64,000 nt of DNA from Lachnospiraceae bacterium (GTDB lineage Bacteria > Bacillota > Clostridia > Lachnospirales > Lachnospiraceae). The notes beneath the pieces were generated by a model, which was not told the origin of the DNA, ran no database searches, and worked only from the letters and a program-made list of their open reading frames with translations. Each line of letters starts with the position of its first letter. Within the stretch, counting starts at the first letter, position 1. A program made the position numbers and the translations under genes. The DNA lies in the NCBI GenBank assembly GCA_902381685.1, contig LR698958.1:497672-561671 (forward strand), in the 5' to 3' direction. Of the stretch, positions 53,168 through 55,551 are shown piece by piece.

Positions 53168-53410
53168 TTACATGCCTTCGTGGAATGTACGTGAAATAAC
53201 GTCGTCCTGCTGTTCTTTTGTTAATTTAATAAAGTTTACTGCGTATCCTGAAACACGAACTGTTAACTGTGGGTAGTTTTCAGGGTGTTTCTGAGCGTCT
53301 AATAATGTTTCTCTTGTGAAAACATTTACGTTTAAGTGGTGTCCGCCCTGTTCTACATAACCGTCTAACATATTTACTAAATTATCAATCTGCTGCTGAT
53401 TTACTGCCAT
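53168..53410 (-). CDS. grcA: Autonomous glycyl radical domain of pyruvate formate-lyase (GrcA-like)
   Basis: 80 residues that match the C-terminal end of ordinary pyruvate formate-lyase: GGHHLNVNVFTRETLLDAQ and the radical site VRVSGYAVNF with Gly55. The adjacent pflB lacks this segment, so the two products probably assemble to form the working enzyme. The gene has its own ATG and an excellent SD TAGGAGG, is 29 bp after the pflB stop and is in a different frame, so this is an organised split rather than a recent frameshift. Confidence 0.9.
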   Translation of the reverse strand: MAVNQQQIDNLVNMLDGYVEQGGHHLNVNVFTRETLLDAQKHPENYPQLTVRVSGYAVNFIKLTKEQQDDVISRTFHEGM

Positions 53411-53439
53411 AGTAATTACCTCCTATATTGTTTTATCTA

Positions 53440-55551
53440 CTATTCGTTGTCAATGCTTTCCATAATGTTTGGAATGTTACAAGCCTGATTTCCGCATTCT
53501 TCGATTCTGTCTAAGTCAAGATCTCCTGCAAAAATCTGGTCTTCTTTTCCTAATGCTCCAGGAATGATTGAGAATGTATTTGAAATACCGTCCTGAGCAT
53601 GTCTGAATGGGATCTTAGCAACTGATGCAAGAGATGCTAATGCTCCGTGAGAGTCACGTCCGTGCATTGGGTTTGCTCCCGGTGCTAATGGTTCTCCCAT
53701 TTTTCTTCCGTCAGGTGTGTTACCTGTTTTCTTACCATATACTACGTTAGAAGTAATTGTTAAGATAGAAGTTGTTGGAACACCGTGACGATATGTGTGG
53801 TGTTTTCTTACTTTGTCCATAAATGAACGAACGATGTCAACTGCGATTTCGTCAACACGGTCATCGTTGTTTCCGTATTTAGGGAAATCTCCTTCTACTT
53901 TGTAATCTACAACCAATCCGTCTTCATCTCTTACAGGTGTTACTTTAGCGTATTTAATAGCGCTTAATGAGTCGGCAACTACAGAAAGTCCTGCGATACC
54001 TGTAGCAAAGTAACGTTTTACATCTCTGTCATGAAGAGCCATCTGAAGTTTTTCGTAAGAATATTTATCATGCATATAATGAATGATATTTAATGTATTT
54101 ACATAAAGTCCTGCTAACCATTCCATCATGTCGTCGAATTTCTGCATTACATCATCGTAATCAAGAACATCGCCTTCTACTGCGCGGTATTTTGGTCCAA
54201 CCTGAATTTTAAGTTTTTCATCAATACCACCGTTGATAGCGTATAATAAACATTTTGCAAGGTTTGCACGTGCTCCGAAGAACTGCATTTCTTTACCAAC
54301 TCTCATTGAAGATACACAGCAAGCGATTGCGTAGTCATCTCCGTGAGTCTGACGCATTAAATCATCATTTTCATACTGGATAGAAGATGACTTGATTGAC
54401 ATCTTAGCACAGTATTCTTTGAATGCGTGTGGTAAACGTGTTGACCAAAGAACTGTTAAGTTTGGTTCCGGAGCAGTTCCTAAGTTGTCTAATGTGTGTA
54501 AGTAACGGAATGATGTTTTTGTAACAAGTGGACGTCCGTCAACACCAACACCACCGATTGATTCTGTTACCCATGTTGGGTCACCTGAGAATAATGCGTT
54601 GTATTCAGGTGTACGTGCAAATTTAACAAGACGTAATTTCATAATAAAGTGGTCAATGTATTCCTGAGCCTGTTCTTCTGTGATTAATCCTCTGTCTAAA
54701 TCACGTTTGATATAGATATCGATAAATGTAGAAGTACGTCCAAGACTCATGGCAGCACCGTTCTGTTCTTTAACTGCTGCAAGGTATCCGAAGTATAACC
54801 ACTGAATTGCTTCTTTTGCGTTTGAAGCAGGTTTTGTAATATCGTATCCGTAGATTTCACCTAATTTAGCTAAGTCGCTAAGTGCACGGATCTGTTCAGA
54901 TAATTCTTCGCGAAGACGAATGTTATCTCCTGTCATTCTTACTAAAGAAGTAGCAAGCTGCTGTTTCTTATCTTCGATTAACCAGTCTGTTCCGTATAAT
55001 GCAACACGACGGTAGTCACCGATGATACGACCACGTCCGTAAGCATCAGGAAGTCCTGTGATGATAGCGGATTTTCTTGCAAGTCTCATTTCAGGTGTGT
55101 AAGCATCAAATACACCCTGATTATGTGTTTTTCTGTATTCTGTAAAGATTTTTACGATTTCAGGGTCTACTTCGTATCCGTTTTCATGACAAGCATTCTG
55201 TGCCATACGGATACCACCAAATGGCTGAAGGGAACGTTTGAAAGGTTTGTCTGTCTGGAAACCAACGATCTGCTCTAAGTCTTTGTTTAAATATCCAGGT
55301 CCGTGAGAAGTAATTGTAGATACGATTTTTGTATCCATGTCTAATACTCCGCCTGCTTCGCGTTCCTGTTTAGAGAGATCCATTACCTGAGCCCAAAGTT
55401 TTGTAGTAGCTTCTGTTGGTCCTGCTAAGAAAGAGTCGTCTCCTTCATATGGAGTGTAGTTCTCCTGAATAAAGTTACGGACATTTACAGATGTACGATT
55501 CCAGCGACCAGGTTTAAATCCGTCCCAACTCGCATTCCAGTTTTTTTCCAT
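53440..55551 (-). CDS. pflB: Pyruvate formate-lyase, catalytic part without glycyl-radical domain
   Basis: Converts pyruvate and CoA to acetyl-CoA and formate. 703 residues against about 740-760 for complete enzymes. The active-site cysteine pair is Cys411-Cys412 in AIACCVSSMRVGK, and SNVVYGKKTGNTPDGRK is conserved. It ends NIPNIMESIDNE, just where the linker to the radical domain would begin; no RVSGYA motif is present. That motif is in the 80-residue gene next to it. Codon bias is extreme, as expected of a major fermentation enzyme. SD AGGAGG. Confidence 0.95.
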   Translation of the reverse strand: MEKNWNASWDGFKPGRWNRTSVNVRNFIQENYTPYEGDDSFLAGPTEATTKLWAQVMDLSKQEREAGGVLDMDTKIVSTITSHGPGYLNKDLEQIVGFQTDKPFKRSLQPFGGIRMAQNACHENGYEVDPEIVKIFTEYRKTHNQGVFDAYTPEMRLARKSAIITGLPDAYGRGRIIGDYRRVALYGTDWLIEDKKQQLATSLVRMTGDNIRLREELSEQIRALSDLAKLGEIYGYDITKPASNAKEAIQWLYFGYLAAVKEQNGAAMSLGRTSTFIDIYIKRDLDRGLITEEQAQEYIDHFIMKLRLVKFARTPEYNALFSGDPTWVTESIGGVGVDGRPLVTKTSFRYLHTLDNLGTAPEPNLTVLWSTRLPHAFKEYCAKMSIKSSSIQYENDDLMRQTHGDDYAIACCVSSMRVGKEMQFFGARANLAKCLLYAINGGIDEKLKIQVGPKYRAVEGDVLDYDDVMQKFDDMMEWLAGLYVNTLNIIHYMHDKYSYEKLQMALHDRDVKRYFATGIAGLSVVADSLSAIKYAKVTPVRDEDGLVVDYKVEGDFPKYGNNDDRVDEIAVDIVRSFMDKVRKHHTYRHGVPTTSILTITSNVVYGKKTGNTPDGRKMGEPLAPGANPMHGRDSHGALASLASVAKIPFRHAQDGISNTFSIIPGALGKEDQIFAGDLDLDRIEECGNQACNIPNIMESIDNE

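Follow-up and report, generated by a model that had tools for sequence, protein, structure and literature searches.

The window, that is, the whole 64,000-nt stretch of DNA analysed here, carries on its minus strand a pflB gene, a short grcA3 gene, and a pflA gene, in that order (Table 1). The first-pass annotation had described a 703-residue pflB that keeps a Cys-Cys pair and stops before the glycyl-radical domain, followed 29 bp downstream by an 80-residue gene in another frame, with a strong Shine-Dalgarno sequence and the motif RVSGYAVNF, and both parts of this description hold: PflB contains Cys411 and Cys412 in the active-site stretch ACCVSSM and ends at the domain linker, its translation as read has no RVSGY motif, and the two gene starts lie 2141 nt apart, which places the small gene in a different frame. 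PflB matched the pyruvate formate-lyase (PFL) profile TIGR01255 at 1136 bits (cut-off 994) over positions 2–665 of 744, and the 80-aa protein covered positions 664–744, so that the halves are complementary and together amount to one PFL with nothing missing. The glycyl-radical domain that TIGR01255 members carry in the same polypeptide is therefore absent from PflB, which ends at position 665; the cognate pflA expected of a PFL lies nearby. The small protein scored 170.2 bits against NF038360 (GrcA3; cut-off 158), 96.3 bits against the YfiD family TIGR04365, below its cut-off of 170, and also matched PFL across the helix (DNLVNMLDGY) leading into the radical domain. By analogy, Gly55 would be the radical position of the small chain. 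The pflA start at 52902 is preceded by GAGGAGG, and a longer open reading frame from 52998 is less likely.

Table 1. Features of the pfl locus and its surroundings, in window coordinates.
Feature	Position	Strand	Basis or remark
pflB, catalytic chain of split pyruvate formate-lyase, 703 aa	53440..55551	-	ORF and TIGR01255 match
Cys411-Cys412 codons (E. coli Cys418-Cys419)	54316..54321	-	sequence reading and alignment of split loci
acidic split-specific C-terminal tail of PflB, residues 670-703	53443..53544	-	FAGD at 53521-53532
intergenic gap, 29 bp, with Shine-Dalgarno AGGAGG serving the small gene	53411..53439	-	sequence reading
grcA3, separate glycyl-radical subunit, 80 aa	53168..53410	-	NF038360, TIGR01255 664-744, PF01228
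RVSGYAVNF in the small protein	53231..53257	-	Gly55 codon 53246-53248
pflA, radical SAM activating enzyme	52144..52902	-	TIGR02493 298 bits (cut-off 232)
two-cluster ferredoxin-like gene beside pflA	51873..52043	-	CxxCxxC motifs; possible ORF start at 52124
promoter-like site of pflB, TTGACT-17-TATAAT	55649..55677	-	matched by consensus alone; 18 sites of this kind in region, 11.0 expected
Rex-box-like palindrome just past the pflB -10 box	55624..55641	.	2 mismatches to the consensus
pair of 57-nt direct repeats in the grcA3-pflA interval	52935..53079	.	96% identical

Several further elements surround these genes. Of the 42 relatives with pflA downstream, 13 (all among L001–L016) have, no more than 1.5 kb from pflA, a ferredoxin-like gene similar to the one in the window, whose product might supply electrons to the activase. 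The Rex-box-like palindrome recurs in the same form in the near-copy L001 and in a weaker form in L002, and matches of this kind in the whole window number five, fewer than the 10.8 expected by chance; a conserved Rex box upstream of pflB was rejected as a general feature, matches with at most two mismatches occurring in three of 30 upstream regions (the window, L001, and L055) against 0.34 expected. The 57-nt repeat has no further copy in the window at up to three mismatches, and its exact core is absent from the 245 loci compared. Farther along, a 1730-aa protein encoded at 45867–51059 begins with a signal-like stretch, ends in one resembling a cell-wall anchor, and looks like a multi-domain glycoside hydrolase.

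Distribution of the split pair

Among the best 80 of 185 related loci, 79 have a separate downstream open reading frame with RVSGY and none has RVSGY within the large one; the sole exception, L058, lies on a contig that extends just 390 bases beyond pflB. The split is thus no assembly artefact. Faecalimonas is closest to the window (98% identity to the metagenome-assembled genome [MAG] L001 and 94% to F. umbilicata L002), and the same break occurs in records titled Lachnospiraceae, Ruminococcus, or Oscillospiraceae, as well as in one Erysipelotrichaceae MAG. The gap between pflB and grcA3 ranges from 0 to 1038 nt with a median of 223 (134 loci, repeats such as L006/L081 included) and exceeds 70 nt in 98 of the 134, so tight coupling is not general; the longest, about 1 kb, is in L118 (3091–4130, reverse orientation). 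Shine-Dalgarno-like words precede the small gene in 131 of 134 loci, the starts having been chosen partly by that word, and pflA lies within 3.5 kb downstream in 42 of the 72 loci with room for it. Given these variable gaps and the partial linkage of pflA, the compact order of the window is one form among several.

The break at first resembles a disrupted gene, as if pflB had suffered a frameshift or were decaying towards loss. We consider this scarcely credible: the break is the same across several families, the Shine-Dalgarno-like words and the C-terminal tail described below are conserved, the glycyl motif is kept in 79 of the best 80 of 185 loci, and 52 of the 55 Lachnospiraceae carriers showed no PFL besides the pair. 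Additionally, the residues aligned with Arg176, Trp333, Cys418, Cys419, and Arg435 of E. coli PFL, of which we take Arg176, Trp333, and Arg435 to be functional residues of the enzyme, are all present in the window and invariant in 133/133 split loci (129 distinct sequences); for these residue counts L188, L197, L200, and L203 were left out, so that 61 full-length rows remain, the four nested fused ones included.

Whole genomes were then surveyed for full-length and split enzymes, in two families that we presume, from named loci, to be Lachnospiraceae (the family of G002) and Ruminococcaceae (that of G010), and with classes assigned by hand. A full-length PFL is present in 65 of 150 Lachnospiraceae genomes and a split PFL in 55 (G060 was called split from contig-edge pieces), three of these having both, and three more are of undetermined class. 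Standalone GrcA3 was found in 55/55 of the split genomes and also in G027, where pflB is fragmentary; among the matches listed (down to about E 1e-21), none came from the 62 full-length-only genomes. The association between split enzyme and standalone GrcA3 has a Fisher p of ∼1e-40 when genomes are counted as unrelated. In the Ruminococcaceae, 77 of 118 genomes have a PFL above cut-off and 24 of these read as split; all 24 have the small gene, one copy each, and in none (0/24) was a full-length PFL found beside it. Across the phylum, 98 of 299 genomes gave a match at E 1e-200, with a split enzyme only in G002 and in G362, which belongs to the same family, and with fragments in G183 and G339. 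Taken with the family surveys, this suggests that the split is typical of a few clostridial families.

Neither G001 nor G002, the two closest genomes searched (both Faecalimonas; G001 is a 2.0-Mb MAG and may be incomplete), yielded a full-length PFL, and the small chain is therefore very probably an obligatory subunit. The earlier suggestion that the separate domain is obligatory stands to this extent for the six genomes with only a split PFL (G001, G002, and G008–G011) among those behind 11 related loci, and agrees with the co-occurrence in both families; it does not extend so simply to the other five (G003–G007), nor to G081, G113, and G121, which have a full-length PFL as well.

Relation to known systems and origin of the small chain

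The split enzyme shares with E. coli PflB (1h16, 2pfl, 1mzo) its fold, Cys-Cys pair, glycyl loop, and type of activase, with 62% identity in the structural match of the window PflB to 2pfl; the E. coli enzyme differs in being one chain of 760 codons, without the F-x-G-D tail and with the radical domain at its end. E. coli YfiD/GrcA and T4 Y06I (TIGR04365; 6owr) are likewise small free proteins that carry a radical domain, and residues 21–79 of the small protein, and no others, align, matching 6owr 68–126. However, YfiD is longer, at 127 residues, its N-terminus is disordered, and it is described by Andorfer et al. (PMC8683613) as rescuing an oxygen-cut PFL that was once intact, whereas the small protein of the window has 80 aa and is encoded beside a pflB without a radical domain. 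The small protein is a member of NF038360, "autonomous glycyl radical cofactor GrcA3," a name that several close relatives bear and that implies an optional repair cofactor, whereas the genomes surveyed here argue for an obligatory subunit. Extra small subunits also occur in other glycyl radical enzymes, the benzylsuccinate and (1-methylalkyl)succinate synthases (4pkf, 9o8u); the large chains of both keep the radical domain, being matched in the PDB search with the small domain, and their small subunits are not known to carry the radical.

The PDB sequences closest to PflB are 38la and 38lb, both named Formate acetyltransferase; 38lb continues past ALGK into an MFGE stretch like that of the split tails, and 38la ends at ALGKED. 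From their sequences both may be split enzymes, and neither they nor a solved chain of GrcA3 type appeared among the PDB matches listed for the small domain; the matches listed by fold search include neither 38la nor 38lb. PMC8683613 mentions 2142 predicted GrcA sequences, which it regards as putative spare parts, and PMC12288474 gives F. nucleatum as lacking GrcA. A description of an obligatory two-chain or split PFL was not found by title or abstract opening in a search whose scope took in few subscription papers and no bioRxiv preprints, and the terms "GrcA3," "split PFL," and "split pyruvate formate-lyase" were absent from the matches listed in the literature text search. The parts themselves are already known, as the NCBI family name and the similar catalytic chains in the PDB attest.

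In a tree of the catalytic core (107 rows), 47 split and four full-length sequences formed one clade of 51 rows (SH-aLRT 100). A 43-row mixture-model tree agreed (bootstrap/SH-aLRT 100/98, three changes needed), and an AU test rejected a clade of split rows without the fused ones at p 0.0009, for a group picked after the first tree. One fission and two later re-fusions would be the simplest reading. The linker of the re-fused L162 resembles a remnant of the split tail and the start of the small chain; in L157, L158, and L164 the linker is as short as in canonical PFLs, so that for these three it is the tree alone that argues for re-fusion. The tree of the radical domain, with few columns, long-branch warnings, and no YfiD, separates canonical from split-type domains, re-fused ones included, with a support of 94, and we take the small chain to be, in all likelihood, the old C-terminus of PFL and not a recruited YfiD. 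Three full-length PFLs, in G674 (L240), G588 (L241), and G813 (L242), have radical domains that are GrcA3-like at 157–162 bits and may be further re-fused cases.

These observations bear on the proposal that the small protein serves only as a YfiD/GrcA-like repair cofactor for an intact PFL, with the short pflB as a by-product. The family name, with its autonomous cofactor, and unlinked second copies at 24 loci speak for it, but no intact PFL was found in G001, G002, or G008–G011, nor in 52 of the 55 split Lachnospiraceae, and the 62 full-only genomes contributed no standalone copy to the matches listed; moreover, the small chain lacks the 60-residue N-terminus of YfiD, keeps the PFL linker helix, and has a radical domain that clusters with those of the split clade and not with canonical ones. 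We accordingly rate this proposal as very unlikely.

Fit of the two chains

In L006 (90% identical), both genes lie in one frame with a single TAA between them. An AF2 model of L006 read through this TAA reached a mean pLDDT of 85.8 (76–93 by block in the small part) and superposes on E. coli PFL 1mzo over 745 residues at 1.2 Å, small chain included; as the model is a single chain and its alignment contained full-length PFLs, this speaks for compatibility and not for assembly. PflB modelled alone, from a different input alignment, fitted more poorly, with 632 residues aligned at 3.0 Å. From the joined model, the two chains would be expected to assemble physically.

Split PflBs run 12–47 residues beyond ALGK, and the net charge of this extension is negative in 133/133. 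In the 14 residues that follow ALGK, the pattern F-x-G-[DEQ] is present in 120 of the 133 split loci, or 116 of the 129 distinct sequences among them, and in none of the 61 canonical full-length PFLs, a set that here includes L188, L197, L200, and L203 and sets apart the four nested fused rows. A looser pattern was present in 129/133 split loci and a first, different pattern in 109/133; of the four nested fused rows, one has the loose and none the strict pattern. The tail was modelled with low confidence both in PflB alone and in the joined model.

A cost of splitting has been reported for an artificial case. According to Andorfer et al. (PMC8683613), E. coli PFL cut at 695 bound YfiD undetectably and was activated 32-fold less, and the truncated PFL with YfiD, once activated, had wild-type activity; splitting thus costs affinity unless something compensates. 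Two regions are named there as important for binding, PFL 696–733 and YfiD residues 1–60. In the natural split, the large chain is without the equivalent of 696–733 and the small chain without YfiD residues 1–60, and the acidic tail is, from its sequence, a candidate docking element that would replace the lost binding regions.

Unlinked copies and the probable two-chain enzyme

GrcA3-type matches, with fused ones counted, occur in 154 of the 397 genomes surveyed in the family of G002; 124 of the 154 have one such match and 30 have two. G001 and G002 showed one standalone copy each. Both copies were inspected in 23 of the 30 two-copy genomes and one copy in three, with G613, G630, G663, and G711 left out. 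In 21 of the 23, one copy lies beside pflB and the other has neither pflB nor pflA in the surrounding 3–4 kb; both copies are pfl-linked in G091, and G770 has one at a contig edge and one unlinked. Of 24 unlinked copies in total, 13 are near spoIIIAA and/or pnp, six follow a Crp/Fnr-type regulator, and five are near neither. The six lie 0.1–0.6 kb downstream of the regulator (by Pfam) on the same strand (L141, L143, L145, L224, L232, and L235). The site between spoIIIAA and pnp recurs across genomes (L142, L226, L229, L237, and L244). Unlinked copies are 78–99% identical to the linked copy of the same genome (median 94%; 18 pairs, with L229, L212, and L235 left out). Upstream of the 24, FNR, CRP, and Rex operators with at most two mismatches numbered 4, 3, and 0 against 6.7, 2.0, and 0.24 expected, and thus showed no enrichment. 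In L211, a 703-aa open reading frame upstream of the unlinked grcA3 was considered as a radical enzyme and rejected, being a chemotaxis receptor.

We hold it highly likely that the enzyme of the window is an obligately two-chain pyruvate formate-lyase. The analysis shows the anatomy of the locus, the invariant active site, the co-occurrence of the chains, their descent from a PFL gene that split once, and the superposition of the joined model on E. coli PFL. In such an enzyme, PflB would fold as the PFL barrel bearing Cys411-Cys412, and the 80-residue chain would fill the slot of the C-terminal domain of an ordinary PFL, bringing Gly55 to the cysteines, with the acidic tail as a candidate means by which the chains find each other. 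With the small chain in place, PflA, the product of the neighbouring gene, would generate the radical on Gly55, and catalysis would then proceed as in E. coli PFL. Oxygen would presumably destroy only the small chain, and a fresh copy could replace the damaged one.

For this last step, an oxygen-damage purpose, the unlinked extra copies of relatives give indirect support only; reserve copies fit a spare-part role and do not prove it. The two-chain enzyme might have no part in repair, the split being neutral or serving stoichiometry or regulation, which we judge a serious possibility at somewhat less than an even chance. Gaps of 0–1038 nt would allow unequal expression of the chains, the two putative re-fusions imply that splitting is not always favoured, and 124 of the 154 genomes have a single GrcA3-type match. 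Yet 30 of the 154 (fused matches counted) have extra copies, six copies stand behind Crp/Fnr-type regulators, and a small chain that is free could in principle be exchanged, with YfiD as precedent (PMC8683613). Tentatively, and with more doubt than confidence, one clostridial fission can be pictured as having yielded an exchangeable 9-kDa radical subunit, a dedicated acidic docking tail, and reserve copies, some behind a Crp/Fnr-type regulator, as spare radical cartridges, in a process that would be reversible, two lineages having re-fused.

PFL supplies formate and acetyl-CoA to gut fermentation and is a textbook oxygen-sensitive enzyme. Many gut-genome genes annotated as formate C-acetyltransferase encode only part of it. 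The natural split sits close to the artificial cut of PMC8683613, which was costly in affinity, and this makes it possible to test the docking of a detached radical subunit, its exchange or otherwise following exposure to air, and the prospect of building glycyl radical enzymes from interchangeable parts. For the cell, the two-piece layout may allow the damaged piece alone to be swapped.
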